This document shows positions 1,234-8,470 of a DNA stretch of 8,552 nucleotides, piece after piece (within the stretch, counting starts at the first letter, position 1; each line of letters begins with the position of its first letter). Position numbers and translations under genes: made by a program. The notes below the pieces were generated by a model. The model did not search any database and had not been told where the DNA came from. It saw only the letters and a program-made list of their open reading frames with translations. Location of the stretch: NCBI GenBank assembly GCA_002450035.1, contig DJYF01000046.1, positions 1 to 8,552 of the forward strand. The letters run 5' to 3'. The DNA comes from Caryophanales bacterium UBA6985. GTDB lineage: Bacteria > Bacillota_I > Bacilli_A > RF39 > UBA660.

Positions 1234-1884
1234 ATGACTAACGCTGAATTAAAATCATATTTTAATTTACTTTACAACAACATTAATAACAATTCTGCGC
1301 CTGGTTTAAAGGATAAGGAAATATCAATGTTTCTTACTAAAGCACAAGATGAAGTTGTAAAAAATCATGCACTTACTAACAATACTTATCAGATGGGTAT
1401 AAACCAAATGAGTAAACGAGATAATGAGTTAGGCAGTCTTATTAAAGTGTATGCTACTACAACATTTTCTACATAGAGTGCACCAAGATTGCATCCACAT
1501 AGTGTAACTTGTGTATGTAATATTAATCCGTTAGTTATATTATCAGAAACAGCAAATGATAAATTAGATGTTGTGGAGTTAAGTTATATTCAGTTTAATA
1601 AGTTTATGGCAGGAATATACAAACACCCTAAAAAGAATCAATGTTGGAAACTTAGACATGATTCTATAATTGAATTAGTTATGCCTGCAAGTGTAAATAC
1701 ATTAACTAAATATGTTATGGTCTATGTAAAAAAGCCTGCAGATATTGATGTTAATGGTAGCACTACTGAAGTACCTGAAACACTACATCAAGAAATAGTG
1801 CAAAGAGCAGTTGAACTGGCTAAAGCTGCTTATATGAGTGAATCTGTTAGTATACAAACACAAATGGGTCAAAGAAGTGAGTAA
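1234..1884 (+). CDS. Head-tail connector (ring-like) protein, one in-frame TAG
   Basis: Reading TAG at 1474-1476 as Gln (residue 81) gives 216 residues ending at TAA; under the standard code it would be an 80-residue stub plus a 3' fragment with only a TTG start. The N-terminal part holds LTKAQDEVV (34-42). The C-terminal part holds KYVMVYVKKP (159-168) and a helix ETLHQEIVQRAVELAKA (182-198). All three features recur in the same order in the next gene, so the two are paralogues. In crAss-like phages several small paralogous proteins of this kind stack as rings between portal and tail; the family assignment is inference from size, order and paralogy. It starts one base after the previous stop and overlaps the next ATG by one base. 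Confidence 0.6.
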
Positions 1885-2684
1885 TGAATGAAAAAGAATT
1901 TTCTGATAAATTTGATGCTTTATTAAATAGCTATAAGACTAGTGTTCCTTATGGTTATGAGCAAGGTAATTTTGATTTTACATTAAATGAATATGAAAAA
2001 TCATTATATCTTACTCAATCTCAAGAATAGTATGTTGAAAATTATTTTACATCAACCACTGATATTGATAGCACATTTGAAGGTACTGAGAAAGCCAGAA
2101 AAAGTTTAGAAGCTTTGGTAAGAGATAGATATCTTGAAGAAGATACTACAGAGCGTAGACATATTGTAAAAGATTCACAATTCTTTAAAGTGGCTGATGA
2201 TGTATGGTTTACAGTGTATGAAGCTGTAGAATACAATACTGAGAATGGAGATTGTGTTGTTCTTCCAGATTGTATAAATAGTAGCGTGCAGGATTTAGGT
2301 GCTGCATATACTACAGTATTACCTATAACACATGATGATTTTTATAGAACATATCATAATCCTTTTAGAGGTGTTACAAATAAAAGAGCTTTAAGACTGA
2401 CAGCAGGAGAAAAACTATATGAAGTTGTATCAAAATATCCTATAAATAAGTATCTTATAAGATATGTAAAAAGACCAAATCCAATAATACTTGAAACCTT
2501 ACCTGATGGTCTTACTATTGAAGGCAAAAGTGGTATGCAAACTTGTCAATTGGATGAAAGTCTACACGATACTATTTTAAGTATGGCTGTACAACTAGCT
2601 CTAAATTATCATAGATTAACTGCAAGTAGTAGTACATCTCAACCACAAACGACAACTAAATCATCAAAAGATGATAATGATTGA
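1884..2684 (+). CDS. Second head-tail connector (ring-like) paralogue, one in-frame TAG
   Basis: The frame starts at the ATG that overlaps the previous TAA (TAATG) and runs 266 residues to TGA, with TAG at 2028-2030 read as Gln 49. The sequence LTQSQE-Q-YVEN (43-53) lines up with LTKAQDEVVKN of the upstream gene, so the TAG sits inside a conserved motif where a polar residue is expected. KYLIRYVKRP (189-198) and ESLHDTILSMAVQLALN (225-241) match the C-terminal features of the upstream protein. Residues from about 246 on are a Ser/Thr/Gln-rich tail. Without readthrough the only remaining frame would begin at TTG 2115 and lose the conserved N-terminal motif. The likely role is a neck ring or tail adaptor; which ring position it takes cannot be told from sequence alone. 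Confidence 0.6.
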
Positions 2685-2720
2685 TAATTAATTTTATTGT
2701 TTAACTAAATACATATTAAA

Positions 2721-3827
2721 ATGGCTGTATTTAATACAAATCAAGTAAGACATTTATATGTCACTGGTGTTAATGAAAATGGTGGTTTAGCCAATGCTCA
2801 ATTAGGACCTGTAACAAAGACTGCTGCGCAAATGGCTACATTTAAACAGAAGCCTGTTGGTTATATGGTTCCTGTTGTAGATAATCTTACTAATCCTACC
2901 AAGTTGCACTTTGTATATAAAGGTTTTGGAGGCCCCATTAGAAGTGATTTAATTGACCTTAGAAAGGCTACTTATTACAGCATTGTAGACCCAGCTAATG
3001 ATAAGTACACTCTTAAAGCTAAGAAAGTTAGCTTAAGAAGTGACGTTAATGGTGGTAACCCTGTTGCTGGACAAGATTATATCTTAGGTATTGAGATTAA
3101 GGGTTTTACTAGTGGCTTTGATGAGGATACCTATACTAAGCAAGGTATGGTTCATGCCTTCAGTAATATGGACGCTAAGAAGTTCTACAATGTATTAGCA
3201 CTCTCGTTGTGGATGAACTTTAGCCGTGAGACTACTAAGTTCTTCACTTTCTGGTTAGGTACTCAGGAAGTAAATGAGGATAGTGTCAAGGTTATCAAGG
3301 CTGCTCTCAAGAGTGGTGATGATAGCTCTCTCTATGCTGCTGATGGCGTAGTTATCCAAGAGGCTCCACAAGATTGGGATTTAGGTAGAATGCAGGAAGA
3401 GCATCTATTCTTTGATGTTAGCGGTGACACTATTGTATTCAATGGTGATGAGCTGTTATGGGCAGAGATTGAGGATGTAGCTGCTGCTAATATGAATAAT
3501 GATCCTACATTAGGTGGTACCACTATTCCTAATTCTCATAGAATTGCTGACCTTGAGTACTTCTGCATGGGTGAGAGAGGTGACATCTATCGCAATATGG
3601 GATGGCCTAACACTATCTTTAATCCTGCTAGCTTGTTAGTAGACCCAACTAATACTACTGGTTACTTTGTATTCAACATTCACTTTGCATTTACTGATAG
3701 TAGAGAGGGTCCTCAGCGTTCAGAGAAAGATTTGCAGATTGTTGCTCCTACCAATGTATTTGCTAATCTCAAGAGTCTTCTTGATGCAGCAGGTGTTAAG
3801 GAGTTGGTTAGAGATACTGGTGATTAA
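2721..3827 (+). CDS. Probable abundant virion protein, role unknown
   Basis: The frame gives 368 residues ending at TAA with no in-frame TAG among 12 glutamines. It starts MAVFNTNQVRHLYVTGVN and contains alternating beta-like and loop segments, an aromatic stretch KFFTFWLG near the middle and a C-terminal VKELVRDTGD. No signal peptide or membrane helix is seen. Codon choice differs from the neighbours, with more AAG, TTC, CTC, AGC and GAC, the kind of bias seen in highly expressed genes. A strong terminator follows it directly. These points suggest a protein made in many copies. Its place between connector and fibre genes fits a tail tube-like, tail hub or other virion protein. I do not recognise the family with confidence. 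Confidence 0.5.
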   Translation: MAVFNTNQVRHLYVTGVNENGGLANAQLGPVTKTAAQMATFKQKPVGYMVPVVDNLTNPTKLHFVYKGFGGPIRSDLIDLRKATYYSIVDPANDKYTLKAKKVSLRSDVNGGNPVAGQDYILGIEIKGFTSGFDEDTYTKQGMVHAFSNMDAKKFYNVLALSLWMNFSRETTKFFTFWLGTQEVNEDSVKVIKAALKSGDDSSLYAADGVVIQEAPQDWDLGRMQEEHLFFDVSGDTIVFNGDELLWAEIEDVAAANMNNDPTLGGTTIPNSHRIADLEYFCMGERGDIYRNMGWPNTIFNPASLLVDPTNTTGYFVFNIHFAFTDSREGPQRSEKDLQIVAPTNVFANLKSLLDAAGVKELVRDTGD

Positions 3828-3863
3828 TGATCTCTTTTCATAAACAATAGTGTTAAACTTTAA

Positions 3864-3895
3864 TGGGGTTGGGCATTGCCCCAATCCCATTTTTA
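3864..3895 (+). terminator. Strong intrinsic terminator
   Basis: TGGGGTTGGG (3864-3873) pairs with CCCAATCCCA (3880-3889) over 10 base pairs with a single G-T wobble, a six-base loop CATTGC, and then TTTTT AATTT. It lies 36 bases after the TAA of the 2721 gene and only 18 bases before the next start codon. Confidence 0.85.
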
Positions 3896-3907
3896 ATTTA
3901 TACAGCT

Positions 3908-4564
3908 ATGGTATATATAAATAGTTTTGATTTTAATAATGAATATAATCAAATCAATGCTGATGTATCTTTACCACCATATGAATTAACATCAGAAGTA
4001 TACATAGATACAGTAATTATAGGTTCTTAGAATGCTTATGATGTAGAAACTGGAGAATTCAAATTTGATGATGAAGGAATTACTGAATCTTACAATTAGT
4101 ATTTTACCAAAACTACATACAATTATGGCTGGGTATTTAAAGCAAAACATGAGTACAATACTGAAGATGGGTATCCAACAGCTAAAACTTTTTCAGTGCA
4201 AGGGTTACCTATAAACACTAGTAATCTAAGTATTAATGATTTATATTTCATACAAATAAAAACTCAAGGTGCTTATAGTGCTGATACTCCTTGTAGCAAT
4301 ACAGGTGATACTTGGGGTTCGTTATATGATAAATTTAGTATTGATGCTAAAGGTATGTAGTATATGAAAGAATTAGCAGATGATTGTAATACTCCCACAG
4401 ATTTGATTGATTATATTCTTAACAAGAATGCTATTGATGTAGCTGCAGGATGTGGAGATTATGCTACTATGATTTCTAGATATAATGAACTTATGGGTTA
4501 TAGTAATGTAACTACCATAAGTAGTGTAACTAACAATTATAAAAAGTGTGGATGCAATGGCTAA
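3908..4564 (+). CDS. Tail/fibre adaptor protein, three in-frame TAGs
   Basis: Reading TAG at 4028, 4097 and 4358 as Gln (residues 41, 64 and 151) gives 218 residues ending at TAA. The first ~145 residues are beta-rich, including a stretch from NLSINDLYFIQIKTQGAYSA leading into DTPCSNTGDTW. The last ~70 are helical, with YMKELADDCNTPTDLIDYIL, and the protein ends in a short cysteine cluster KKCGCNG. From memory, proteins with a DTPC segment, such a helical part and a terminal Cys cluster recur just upstream of tail-fibre genes in gut Bacteroidales phages; I infer a virion adaptor. None of the pieces left by treating TAG as stop would be a credible gene alone except the last 66 residues. The end overlaps the next gene by 8 bases. 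Confidence 0.6.
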
Positions 4565-5213
4565 TTGTTGTGTTAATGGTTTGAATCAAGTATTCTGTAA
4601 TGCTTTTAATAAGTATTATAATACATTATATGCTAATGGAGAAATATCTAAAGAAGAAACTAATAATCTTCTTATAATAGATTACATTAGACAATGTTTA
4701 TCTGATGACAGATACAGTGGTTATTATAATATATTATTAAAAGCACTACGATGTATTGCAAATAATTCTTGCTTATTAGATACAAGTTGGTTATACAATA
4801 GAAATGTAATACCTAAAGTTACTAATTAGTTTGTTACAGTATTAACAAAATAGCCTTTTGTAGAAACAGACCCTATATTTTCTGCATCTCCTGCTGCAAC
4901 TATAACTGAAGAAGATATAAACAATTGGAATAATTCTAGTGGAGGGGAATAGAGTGATTGGAATGAAACTGATACCGATAGTTTAGCATATATTAAAAAT
5001 AAACCTACTATACCCGCAGCACAAGTTCAAAGCAATTGGAATGAGAGCAATACAAGTTCTAAGGCTTATATTCAGAACAAACCCACTATCCCTACTGTGC
5101 CAACAAATGTTAGTTCTTTTACAAACGATGCTAACTACTTAAAGTACGAACTTGTGACTGCACTACCTGCTAATCCAGATAGTGGAACACTTTATTTAAT
5201 AGCAACGACATGA
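4557..5213 (+). CDS. Tail-fibre adaptor with DWNE repeats, three in-frame TAGs
   Basis: The ATG at 4557 overlaps the previous stop (ATGGCTAA) and is preferred over GTG 4548. With TAG at 4827, 4851 and 4950 read as Gln (residues 91, 99 and 132) the protein has 218 residues and ends at TGA. Residues 1-90 are helical and cysteine-rich and probably attach to the virion. From about residue 130 come two copies of a 22-residue repeat (QSDWNETDTDSLAYIKNKP and QSNWNESNTSSKAYIQNKP, each ending TIP) typical of phage and prophage tail-fibre proteins. The end (SSFTNDANYLKYELVTALP and GTLYLIATT) is also a common fibre segment. The first repeat begins with a TAG that aligns with CAA in the second. The TGA overlaps the next ATG (ATGA). 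Confidence 0.7.
4950..5093 (+). repeat. Tandem 22-residue DWNE/YIxNKPTIP repeat
   Basis: Copy 1 spans 4950-5015 and copy 2 spans 5028-5093, separated by the 12 bases for AAQV, giving a 78-base period. Shared residues are QS-WNE---S-AYI-NKPTIP. The first codon is TAG in copy 1 and CAA in copy 2. The segment EDINNWNNSSGG just upstream may be a weaker third copy. Confidence 0.85.
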
Positions 5214-5422
5214 GCATATATCTTGGAAATACTGAAATAGGACAGATTTATCTTGGTGAGACTGAGATTAGCAAGGCTTATCTTGGCAGTGATTTGATTT
5301 TTGAATCTGGTGGGAGCCCTACTCCACCAACACCACTCCCTTATAATGCGCAAGTAGAGTATTTGCAAGGTGGCTCTGCTCCTTATATAAATGGATAGAA
5401 AAGCATTAAGAGATAGAATTAA
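5210..5422 (+). CDS. Short fibre N-terminal module, truncated, two TAGs
   Basis: The ATG overlaps the previous TGA. Residues 3-32 are three tandem ten-residue units (IYLGNTEIGQ, IYLGETEISK, AYLGSDLIFE), then a Gly/Ser/Pro/Thr linker (GGSPTPPTP), then YNAQVEYLQGGSAPYING. In gut Bacteroidales phages an N-terminal YLG-repeat module followed by VEYLQ...YI normally leads into a lectin-like (LamG-type) domain of 150 or more residues; here the frame ends after 70 residues if TAG 5396 and 5414 are read as Gln (63, 69), or after 62 if 5396 is a stop. The DNA is visibly richer in G+C than the fibre genes on either side. I infer a fibre gene that has lost its receptor-binding part. It may still be made as a small virion adaptor. 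Confidence 0.5.
5216..5305 (+). repeat. Three tandem 30-base (ten-residue) YLG repeats
   Basis: The units start at 5216, 5246 and 5276, each with the core TAT-CTT-GG (Tyr-Leu-Gly). Units 1 and 2 match at seven of ten residues; unit 3 keeps the YLG core and is more diverged. Confidence 0.7.
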
Positions 5423-5459
5423 TGAATTAGAAGATGGAGGAGTTATTACAATTAAGTAA
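5391..5459 (+). pseudogene. Likely C-terminal stump of a lost fibre gene
   Basis: An ATG directly after TAA opens a 22-residue frame with a coiled-coil-like run RKALRDRINELED and the ending GGVITIK before TAA. It lies in the +1 frame relative to the 5210 gene and overlaps its end. Its last 13 residues (INELEDGGVITIK) resemble the C-terminus of the 5471 tailspike (ISEQNGGTDTINEGE), and the DNA matches too: ATGGAGGA then TACAATTAA at 5434-5455 and again at 8028-8049. I infer the leftover end of an older fibre whose middle was deleted. It could also be a real micro-protein, because the ATG overlaps TAG 5396-5398 in the same 8-base geometry as the 4557/4564 pair. Confidence 0.4.
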
Positions 5460-5470
5460 ATAAAATAACT

Positions 5471-8062
5471 ATGTGCAAATGTTTACTATAGGTAATTAAA
5501 TCAATTTTTTCTAACAAACAATCAAAACTTATGCAATGTAATGTAAAAATACTTGAAGGAAATAAAAAGAATGGTGTTAACTATTTAAATAGTAGATCAT
5601 TCAATAAGTCTGATACAAGATATATACTTAAGTGTGATTTTGCTCTTTGTGAGAATATTACTATACCTGATAATTGTATTTTAGAATTCGATGGAGGTTC
5701 AATTAAAAATACAGTAGAAAATGGTATAAACAAATATACATTAAGAGGAAGTCATACTGTAATTAAATCTCCACCTGTATAGATATTTGACTTTGATGGT
5801 GATTTAAATTACTTAGGTAGAATTGGTAACATAAACGCAAGACATAAAAAAGATACTGTATTCTTTGCTGGAACTTGGAAAGTAGATGAAGTTTATCCTG
5901 AATGGTTTGGTGCTAAAGGTGATGCTATCATATCTGATGAAGTAACACAAAGAAACTATGGTGGAAAACAATGGGATACACTATAGCCAATATTAAATGA
6001 TACAGCAACTGATGATTAGCCTGCTATACAAAAAGCGTTATATGCTGCAGTAGCTTTTGGTTGTTCTACAGTTAGATTTTTAAATTGTTACTTAATAGAA
6101 TCAACAGTAAGAGTTCCTGCAAATATAATGCTTGAAGGAGGACTTGATAATTATTATCATGGTAAACCTACTATATTTGCTAATTTTAAAGATAGATTAT
6201 CTGGATATGCTCTTGACTCTGATATATATACAGATGATACTTTAGAAACTAAAGTAGAAGGAGTACCATTTAAATTGAACTTTAAGGTTGTAAGAACTCC
6301 TTATGGTATAGGTACTGGTGATAATTCATTCTCTATAAAGAATTTTGGATTAGCTACAACTAATAATACTTTTGGTGCACTGCGTGTAGTAAACAACAGT
6401 AAAGGTGTATTTGAGAACATCCACATTGTTGGTTTTAATTTAGGCGTATTTACAACAAATGTTTGGTGTTGTAAGTTTTCCAATATATTCATTGATAGTT
6501 TTTATATCGGTTTAGTTATAGGACAAGATTCAACAGTATTAACATTTGAATCAGTTGACCTTGTATTACGTAAAAGCAATTCTACTATTAGATTATATGG
6601 GGTAGATGTAAATCCTACACCTAATGAAGAAGATAAGGCTTTATATGAACAATTAATCGCTGTTCCTCAAGTTATTCAACAATGTACTGACTACCATGAC
6701 CCAACAACAAATACATTTATAGAATATCATGGTTCACTAGGTGTTTTCTTTGATTATGGTAGTGCTGTATTTAACGGATGTACTATTGAAGGATTTGATT
6801 CTGGTGTATTTGGTAGACAAGTATCTATGGTATGGAATAATCCATATTTTGAATATATTAACAAATCTATATTTGGTGTAAATAAAGGTAGAATTGTTGT
6901 TAACAATATGTATGGTGTTACAACAAGAGTTCCATCAGGTAGTAGTGGAAATACGTATCGTGATGAAAATATAGGTTATGGTCCTGTAACCAACAGGTAT
7001 CTTTATGTTGCTGACTATATGTCAGCATTGTTGTTAAACAATTGTCATGCAGGAAAATGTTGGTCACCTGGTTCTCCATACTATTAGGGTATTTATTATA
7101 GTTCACCAATATATACTATACGTGGTAAGAAGATTGAAGCACGTTCATTAATAGGTTGCTTTGGAAACAATAATGATAATTATACTGACTATCCAGAACT
7201 AGATACAGTATATATATCAGATAATGGTTTCACTGAGCATTTTGGTATGAGTACATTTGATACAATAACTCCAAATACATTCTTTACCAAATTAAATGAC
7301 TCTCATATTTTTGACAATGTAAAAACTGTTGTACTTGTAGATACTTGTACTTTTGATTAGAGTTATACTATACCAGAAAAAATAGAACGTATTACATTCC
7401 AAGCATAGACTACACCATATCAACCTGATAAGATATGCAAACTATATTGGAATGCACCTCTAGTTATAGAAAATACATATGTTAAATTTAGAAGTTTTGA
7501 TGGAGATAATAAAATAAACGTTAATATTCCAGCAGAAGATTTCATATATCTAACAAGATTTTATTCTAAACATAATAGTGTTTTAGAATTTCAATATTGT
7601 GATATTGATATAGACAGCAGTATAAATAGAAATGCTTATCTTATAGCTTCTGGTATTGGTAGTCAATATAGTTTGTATTATCCTGAGGAAGTAAAACTTG
7701 TATTTAATAATTCTAATTTTGTTAAAAATGGTACTCCTTTAGAAACTTACTTTATTACTAGTGTTCATTCTAATGCAAGATTTGCATTATCTATAAACAA
7801 TGTAACAATATATCCAAAAGTTTTTGGTACCTTTGCAGATAAACCACAACATCCTTATGTGCATTTAGGAGATACATATTTTTGTACAGACAAATATGCA
7901 GAAGGTTCTACAAATGCTGGACTTCAGATAACTTTCTATGATGCAGACCATAATTATTGGATGGATGCTAACGGTAACAAAGTTACAGAGGATTCACACA
8001 ACCTAACACAAAATATTAGTGAATAGAATGGAGGAACTGATACAATTAACGAGGGAGAATAA
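5471..8062 (+). CDS. Beta-helix tailspike/tail fibre, eight in-frame TAGs
   Basis: With TAG read as Gln at residues 7, 104, 172, 183, 539, 630, 646 and 852 the protein has 863 residues and ends at TAA. Residues 63-78 (ITIPDNCILEFDGGSI) are a head motif common in gut Bacteroidales phage fibres. YPEWFGAKGD (142-151) and TDDQPAIQKAL (180-190) match the pectate-lyase/tailspike entry motif, with TAG supplying the Q. From about 220 to 550 there are many short beta strands with N/G turns, as in a right-handed beta-helix; a second beta-rich part fills 550-800, and a short aromatic end (YWMDANGNKV) follows. The likely role is binding or cutting host surface glycan, but I see no certain catalytic residues. 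The start could also be ATG 5531, which would skip the TAG at codon 7 and give 843 residues. No long virion-anchor domain precedes residue 63. Confidence 0.75.
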
Positions 8063-8066
8063 TTAT

Positions 8067-8204
8067 ATGCTTAAATAGATTATAGCATATATAAATCATA
8101 TAAATGCTAATGCTGATAATGAAAACAGTAACGATTTCATTAGAAACATATTAGCTAATTTAATTAGCAATACAGTAGATTATAATAAAATGTTTAACAG
8201 ATAA
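8067..8204 (+). CDS. Small protein of 45 residues, TAG at codon 4
   Basis: ATG 8067 follows GAGGGAG (8051-8057) by 9 bases and lies 4 bases after the tailspike stop. The frame reads MLK, then TAG (8076-8078, read as Gln), then IIAYINHINANADNENS, and ends VDYNKMFNR before TAA. It is Asn/Ile-rich, with two likely helices around an acidic Asn-rich loop; there is no signal peptide or membrane segment. I do not recognise a family. Its place between spike and holin would suit a spike chaperone or a lysis accessory, but this is speculation. Under the standard code only three residues would be made. Confidence 0.5.
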
Positions 8205-8215
8205 ATTAAAACATT

Positions 8216-8470
8216 ATGAAAAATTACTTTTTTAATTTTGCACTCGTAGCTTTAGTAGCTTGTGTTGCAGGTATTTTAACTTTCCTTTGTGGTGCTTCTA
8301 TGGCTGCTGCAATGGTAGGTGGTGTTTATTCAGGTTTAGCAACTGCATTGAGTTATCAGTTTGGTAGACTTATGGCAGGTGCTGGCTATGACGGTAAGAT
8401 GTTACTTATTCAAGTAATTGCTGGTGTACTGTTTGGTGCATTTGGTGGTTGGATGTTATCTGTAGGATGA
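8216..8470 (+). CDS. Holin-like small membrane protein
   Basis: The frame gives 84 residues ending at TGA, with no in-frame TAG. Three hydrophobic, Gly/Ala-rich segments are visible at about 5-25, 27-47 and 62-82. A short loop with Arg, Asp and Lys (51-61) lies between the second and third. Size, three helices and position after the tail genes fit a class I-like holin, which would open the inner membrane for lysis. The sequence itself carries no family-specific signature that I recognise, so another small phage membrane protein remains possible. The TGA overlaps the next ATG (ATGA), which suggests coupled translation of two membrane proteins, as in lysis cassettes. Confidence 0.55.
   Translation: MKNYFFNFALVALVACVAGILTFLCGASMAAAMVGGVYSGLATALSYQFGRLMAGAGYDGKMLLIQVIAGVLFGAFGGWMLSVG

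Follow-up and report, generated by a model that had tools for sequence, protein, structure and literature searches.

In-frame TAG codons, very probably read as glutamine, in a structural gene block of a Steigviridae-type crAss-like phage

Stop-codon reassignment is well documented in crAss-like phages, 243 of which were reported with TAG or TGA reassigned, mostly in the Beta, Delta and Zeta groups (Yutin 2021, PMC7886860). Reassignment there is mostly limited to the late-gene parts of the genomes and matches the occurrence of suppressor transfer RNAs (tRNAs) imperfectly (PMC7886860). The Beta group is the present Steigviridae (PMC10136315), and TAG-to-glutamine recoding is already known in crAss-like phages including this family (PMC7886860, PMC10136315). 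Mass spectrometry has moreover placed glutamine at TAG in two crAss-like phages (Peters 2022, PMC9523058), which belong to other groups, one to Suoliviridae and one to Zeta (PMC10136315). Lak megaphages, with much larger genomes (~540 kb), recode stop codons too. The subject here is an 8,552-nucleotide stretch of contig DJYF01000046.1 (forward strand; "the window"), whose genes mark it as the head-and-tail part of a Steigviridae-type crAss-like phage genome. An original prediction, made from the letters of this DNA, had proposed that TAG is recoded there, probably to glutamine, with some crAss-like and Lak gut phages as precedent.

The window resembles the TAG-recoded Beta phages in its crAss-like gene set, in the change of TAG to glutamine mostly in late genes, and in having tRNA-rich relatives with a suppressor tRNA (PMC7886860, PMC10136315); with the phages of Peters 2022 (PMC9523058) it shares code 15, in its case predicted from sequence, in structural proteins. 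Unlike the known recoded Steigviridae, its lineage (with related loci L006, L005 and L001) occupies a separate long branch of the capsid tree. Gene order follows crAss001 (Kehishuvirus, Steigviridae) through gp32-33-34-35-36-38-39, minus the crAss001 endonuclease gene gp37, with crAss-type capsid, ring, auxiliary capsid and tail hub proteins all present in that order, the match of hub B lying below the curated cut-off. The crAss001 capsid is 70.7% identical to that of L006, a near-identical neighbour contig; unlike the window, crAss001 has ordinary full-length annotated frames here, and its auxiliary capsid protein is 34.3% identical.

Taken together, the window is very probably a structural gene block of a Steigviridae-type crAss-like phage on genetic code 15, with UAG read as glutamine. 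There is direct support for the sense reading of TAG, for glutamine by alignment, for TAG never being a gene end, and for the same recoding in close and distant relatives. All 19 positions predicted to hold an in-frame TAG do read TAG, each in its frame, across seven frames (1234-1884, 1884-2684, 3908-4564, 4557-5213, 5210-5422, 5471-8062 and 8067-8204) that contain no internal TAA or TGA, as had been claimed; 16 of these TAGs lie firmly inside genes and three (5396, 5414, 5489) are doubtful. The further claim that genes end in TAA or TGA agrees with the 12 frame ends examined (TAA eight, TGA four, TAG none), one of which, at 5396 versus 5420, is arguable. Among random triplets, 1806 joined codons free of TAA and TGA would have a log10 P of about -48.

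Open reading frames (ORFs) of at least 100 amino acids (aa) cover 0.51 of the window under code 11 and 0.88 under code 15, with TAG as sense, a comparison that the original prediction had proposed for the full genome and that, in the window, comes out in its favour. Standard-code gene calling splits all seven TAG-bearing frames. Code 4 (TGA as sense) and reassignment of TAA were rejected on coverage, at 0.51 and 0.65 versus 0.88. The expected coherent domains and tight junctions are likewise present: Pfam matches extend over the TAGs of hub A and of the two ring proteins, and frames in code 15 abut closely, for example through ATGA at 5210-5213. With glutamine at TAG, the translation reads TVVLVDTCTFDQSYTIPEK across 7358, ITFQAQTTPYQPDK across 7406 and GMQYMK across 4358. 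In the tail genes of the window the firm TAGs (16) outnumber CAG (5). TAG is not distributed over the entire block: it occurs in the ring, hub, fibre and 45-aa genes, and 225-1232 and 2721-3827 have none. Homologues ending at the TAG positions were not found for hub A, whose nine database homologues all measure 212-230 aa and cover 99-100%; this covers 4358 and not 4028 or 4097, because the search was confined to proteins between 0.55 and 1.75 times as long as the query.

To identify the encoded residue, homologues from the loci that had been assigned to the standard code were made into profiles, against which each amino acid was scored for each codon, in nats; this inference and the column counts use stop-to-stop frames, and some counted TAGs therefore precede start codons. 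Eight gene alignments of the window and its relatives (69 TAG columns) gave glutamine +59.2 versus glutamate +6.7 and recovered 60 of the 61 sense codons, and all matched frames of the window and the relatives taken as recoded (278 TAG columns) gave glutamine +175, followed by lysine at -40.9, with the same recovery. In the window alone, seven TAG columns favoured glutamine over serine by 7.2 to 2.0 (56 of 58 sense codons recovered). The predicted glutamine comes first in all three sets, weakly suggested by the alignments of the window alone and decisively by those of the pooled set. It also ranks first in eight of nine relatives or relative groups scored singly, by small margins in L006 (5.0 versus lysine 2.9) and L005 (3.9 versus lysine 1.1). 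Among single columns, TAG 4028 faces glutamine in 14 of 22 standard-code homologues, glutamine is commonest at 4358 (6 of 22), and 2028 is divided between glutamate (26) and glutamine (19) of 59. In the L005 capsid, compared with rows that include recoded relatives, one TAG column holds glutamine in 73 other rows and nothing else, and another holds it in 71 besides at least 16 cases of other residues. A pair of capsid TAGs common to L044 and L045, whose capsid rows are identical, also fall in columns where glutamine is commonest.

Several columns weigh against glutamine. At 4028, four of the five other recoded rows have proline, and glutamine is not the commonest residue at the six window columns of the gene alignments other than 4028, 4358 and 2028. 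In standard-code homologues, proline is commonest at 1474 (24 of 59 gapped), aspartate at 4827 (7 of 11), and 8076 aligns with glutamate twice and serine once. The fibre TAG at 5780 faces lysine nine times and threonine twice, and the other seven fibre TAGs have no residue of a homologue opposite them. L073, classed as recoded by coverage, scores tryptophan 3.3 and glutamine -1.6 over six columns, and may not be recoded.

As to mechanism, a phage-encoded tRNA with a CUA anticodon would decode UAG, the host would charge it with glutamine, and it would outcompete host release factor 1, while TAA and TGA would still end genes. One such tRNA (labelled Pyl by ARAGORN) is present in each of the contigs of L057 (103.9 kb, 21 tRNA matches) and L069 (98.3 kb, 13 matches), and neither contig has a glutamine tRNA among those ARAGORN read, namely 20 of the 21 Rfam matches of L057 (the remaining one has 65 bases and lacks part of the anticodon loop) and 12 of the 13 of L069 (the remaining one is below cut-off). 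The standard-code L040 carries both Gln(TTG) and Gln(CTG), and none of the 26 tRNAs that ARAGORN read there has a CUA anticodon; at least four further Rfam matches in its array, with long inserts, went unread, and these four show no clear CUA loop, though they may hold one. No CUA was found among four tRNAs in the standard-code L064 or among 23 in the first 20 kb of crAss001. A search for an RF-1-domain protein found none in four recoded records.

Two sets of observations tell against this mechanism. The window (where an Rfam scan found nothing), L006 and L001 contain no tRNA, nor do seven of the nine recoded records searched whole, the longest of these seven having 29.7 kb; four more standard-code records of 54-64 kb gave no tRNA match either, and absence from a fragment therefore means little. 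Furthermore, the sequences of the CUA tRNAs give a mixed picture of the amino acid charged onto them. The CUA tRNA of the L057 contig has its best score, 89.2 with 57 of 73 aligned positions, against Gln(CTG) from a standard-code relative; a leucine tRNA follows at 88.0, and leucine tRNAs ranked first when a smaller comparison left that relative out. The CUA tRNA of the L069 contig is nearest to a tryptophan tRNA.

The tRNA regions hold further features. The CUA tRNA of the L057 contig (L108:3243-3331) has 89 bases and an extended variable region, in a contig whose codon evidence indicates glutamine. The recoded contigs with a CUA tRNA (L108, L109, L110) have no Gln(TTG/CTG) tRNA among those read, and the standard-code L040 (L124) has both glutamine tRNAs; perhaps the suppressor took the place of a glutamine tRNA or derives from one. 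Four matches that resemble tRNAs but contain long inserts, 109-142 bases in all, lie at L124:501-1500 on the minus strand (L040) and could be inserted or decayed tRNAs. In addition, the tRNA-rich region of a recoded contig encodes a transfer-messenger RNA (L108:11058-11395; Rfam RF00023, 73.7 bits) with tag peptide ADTYTTAYDMAA according to ARAGORN.

Four other explanations have to be weighed. Were the frames pseudogenes produced by ordinary decay, or by assembly errors, in a standard-code phage, a stretch such as 5390-5490, which looks truncated or recombined, would be expected; yet random one-step nonsense changes would yield TAG with a share of 23%, so that 16 of 16 has P ~7e-11, as the original prediction had argued in words, and homologous genes carry TAGs in L001, L012, L057 and L069, while L006 keeps TAG 1474. 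The chance of this explanation is next to negligible, the comparative evidence refuting decay as the origin of the 16 firm TAGs; sequencing error is likewise rejected. That TAG is sense and encodes some other residue in the window's phage (lysine, glutamate or serine) draws on the small margins over serine in the window and over lysine in L006 and L005, and on the lysine column at 5780; it is highly improbable given that glutamine ranks first in the close relatives L001 and L005 and that the L005 capsid TAGs and TAG 4028 stand at glutamine columns.

TAG might alternatively still be a stop with a low, regulated rate of readthrough, long and short tail proteins both being made on purpose. The near-absence of TAG from head-side genes, as slower or leaky decoding of UAG would predict, would fit, but TAG ends no frame examined and single frames of relatives hold many TAGs (nine in the L069 ring frame, 48 in a 1681-codon frame of L109), from which low readthrough would give almost no product; this reading is very unlikely. 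More weight, within what is still an unlikely explanation, goes to decoding by a host suppressor tRNA or an altered host release factor in place of a phage tRNA: seven shorter recoded records have no tRNA, and recoding with no suppressor detected has been reported for crAss-like phages (PMC7886860). Against it, each of the two recoded contigs near 100 kb has a CUA tRNA of its own, and the shorter records are fragments.

Under code 15, TAG use differs between head-side and ring and hub genes. Glutamine codons were summed per gene over six recoded phages (the window completed with the L006 capsid, L001, L012, L045, L057 and L069); L005, L044 and L073 were omitted, and in L044 and L073 two ring entries have the same counts and are probably the same frame. 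TAG makes up 5 of 256 glutamine codons in the three head-side genes (capsid 2/111, gp33-like 3/79, auxiliary capsid 0/66) versus 57 of 186 in the ring and hub genes (gp34-like 25/91, gp35-like 12/43, hub A 14/33, and hub B 6/19 from three phages), and the head-side trio gives the largest difference among the 20 choices of three from six genes. Per phage, head side versus ring and hub stands at 0/45 versus 8/37 in the window, 0/42 versus 11/40 in L001, 0/37 versus 5/24 in L012, 3/51 versus 5/29 in L045, 1/43 versus 12/28 in L057 and 1/38 versus 16/28 in L069. With P values that are only a guide, because codons are not independent and contigs are related, the contrast in the window is 0/45 on the head side, L006 capsid included, versus 16/63 in the ring, hub, fibre and 45-aa genes (Fisher P 1.4e-4), 0/26 (gp33-like and auxiliary capsid) versus 8/37 (ring and hub) for the window alone (P 0.017), and 5/169 versus 38/109 for L012, L045, L057 and L069 (P 6e-13). 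Recoded contigs from three distinct clades of Steigviridae show the pattern, L045 weakly; contrary to it, the omitted L005 has two TAGs among 20 capsid glutamine codons.

Sequence conservation does not simply explain this depletion, to judge from identities to matches in phage records of 24-38% for the auxiliary capsid protein, which has no TAG, and 29-40% for the gp35-like ring protein, where TAG is 12 of 43. The plain reading of the counts is that UAG would be decoded less well than CAA or CAG and that genes under strong expression demand avoid it. In crAss001, gp34 and gp35 form dodecameric rings (gp35 ring 3 and gp34 rings 4 and 5, an assignment once reversed in the source), the 12 hubs each contain two gp38 and one gp39, and the shell has nine copies each of gp32 and gp36 per asymmetric unit (PMC10172136). 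A tentative and rather doubtful extension, based on codon counts taken without correction for general codon bias, is that genes for shell proteins made in hundreds of copies (major and auxiliary capsid), and the gp33-like gene as well, exclude TAG, which is left free in ring and hub genes of ~12-24 copies, UAG acting as a slow, dose-setting glutamine codon that would fix the head-to-tail ratio. TAG depletion in the head-side versus the ring and hub genes of one block offers a testable clue to the cost or control of recoding. Borges 2022 reportedly deals with recoding and lytic genes. No statement of TAG depletion in head genes was found in the literature examined, whose scope did not extend to that paper or to supplements, and the pattern is not claimed to be unreported.

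Comparative searches place the window within a wider set of recoded loci. A clear gain from code 15 was seen in 11 of 75 sequences of at least 2.5 kb (74 loci and the window), namely L001, L005, L006 and L076 (one contig), L012, L044, L045, L057, L069, L073 and the window, the coverage test omitting three loci below 2500 bases (L014, L036, L070). L006 (12.2 kb) differs from the window by one residue in the gp33-like protein and one in the first ring protein, with the same TAG 1474; its upstream part, of about 10 kb, holds a full capsid gene, and TAG occurs in eight of the 13 frames counted from position 993 through that gene. Its capsid is 70.7-72.1% identical to the best-listed 12 of 117 matching phage records. 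L001 shares with L006 the gene order and TAG use of the window. L001 also has, upstream of its capsid frame, a GIY-YIG endonuclease frame with six in-frame TAGs (L001:286-900), perhaps an intron endonuclease sharing the recoding. In the 1681-codon frame of L109 (1-5043), TAG outnumbers CAA (28) and CAG (7) combined.

Among the 81 rows of a capsid tree, 72 of them distinct, the eight recoded ones are found at three positions: the clade of the window, L006/L005/L001, together with the unclassed L004; L012/L057/L069; and L044/L045. At least four code changes are needed, of which the branches starred in the tree force three, and one depends on L004 and may be no change at all; L004, of 2.6 kb and without TAG in its frames, is not classable and was drawn as not recoded, and L073 lies outside the tree. 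Through L006, the window lineage stands among crAss001, DAC15, cr85, cr112 and others, on a long branch (0.56) at an unresolved fork in a tree without an outgroup from another crAss-like family. A recoded lineage is probably added to Steigviridae, and recoded contigs are placed in three parts of one capsid tree. A search of the window against 50,697 phage records gave no DNA match covering more than ~2% of it, an exact pattern from it had no match in IMG/VR, and a capsid search of a genome collection gave 16 pattern matches and no relative.

All genes of the window lie on the plus strand. The 3' end of a gp32-like major capsid protein gene (1-144, stop TGA, no TAG) matches capsid genes of crAss001 and relatives as DNA over 1-140 or 1-186, and the full-length capsid of L006 matches Pfam Crass_capsid (E 1.2e-197). 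The gp33-like gene (225-1232; 335 aa, no TAG, 14 CAA/CAG) sits where gp33 does in crAss001 and has homologues in 82 of 122 loci. Two tail ring proteins follow, gp34-like (1234-1884) and gp35-like (1884-2684) by position, whose Pfam CrAss_Ring_3_4 matches (E 1.5e-20, residues 1-204; E 1.3e-61, residues 1-247) span TAG 1474 and TAG 2028, respectively. The gp36-like auxiliary capsid protein (2721-3827; Pfam crAss_AuxCP, E 6.9e-77) has no TAG and 12 CAA/CAG. The gp38-like tail hub protein A (3908-4564) has nine full-length homologues and a Pfam crAss_THA match (E 1.2e-15) across its three TAGs (4028, 4097, 4358); its start was set at ATG 3908, which fits the homologues, and the mechanical ORF list starts the frame at 3863. 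A relative of this protein, P0017, is 94% identical and represents six contigs, of which the longest has 108,347 bases.

Downstream, 4557-5213 (TAG 4827, 4851, 4950) joins a tail hub protein B-like N-terminus (Pfam crAss_THB, E 5.3e-4, the match below cut-off) to a C-terminal part that resembles a fibre (PHROG tail fiber protein, E 4.8e-16). The tail fibre or tailspike-like protein (5471-8062; 863 aa) carries TAGs at 5489 (doubtful), 5780, 5984, 6017, 7085, 7358, 7406 and 8024, is 98% identical to the public 863-aa protein P0001, and shows weak similarity to tailspike or hypothetical proteins in 28 phage records. A small 45-aa gene (8067-8204, TAG 8076) has homologues in L042, L024 and L039. 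The last gene encodes an 84-aa glycine/alanine-rich protein (8216-8470, no TAG) with a homologue in L042, perhaps a holin-like membrane protein, as guessed from its composition.

The three doubtful TAGs lie between 5390 and 5490. A 70-codon frame with YLGxTEI repeats (5210-5422), of which the relative P0027 matches 47%, the first half, carries at its end TAGs 5396 and 5414, which are made doubtful by an alternative, overlapping frame of 22 codons (5391-5459, from ATG 5391 to TAA 5457) without a convincing homologue; the search with the latter gave one meaningless match (E 5). One listed protein, P0026, ends at TAG 5396; it is what this frame of the window itself yields with the standard code. 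TAG 5489 lies upstream of an in-frame ATG at 5531, and P0001, a gene call, includes it. The end of the 70-codon frame is presumably the start of a lectin-like stretch, broken off. Within 5210-5490 the stretch VEYLQGGSAPYING breaks off beside the 22-codon frame, as though deletion or recombination had left a scar in a rapidly changing part of the fibre genes.

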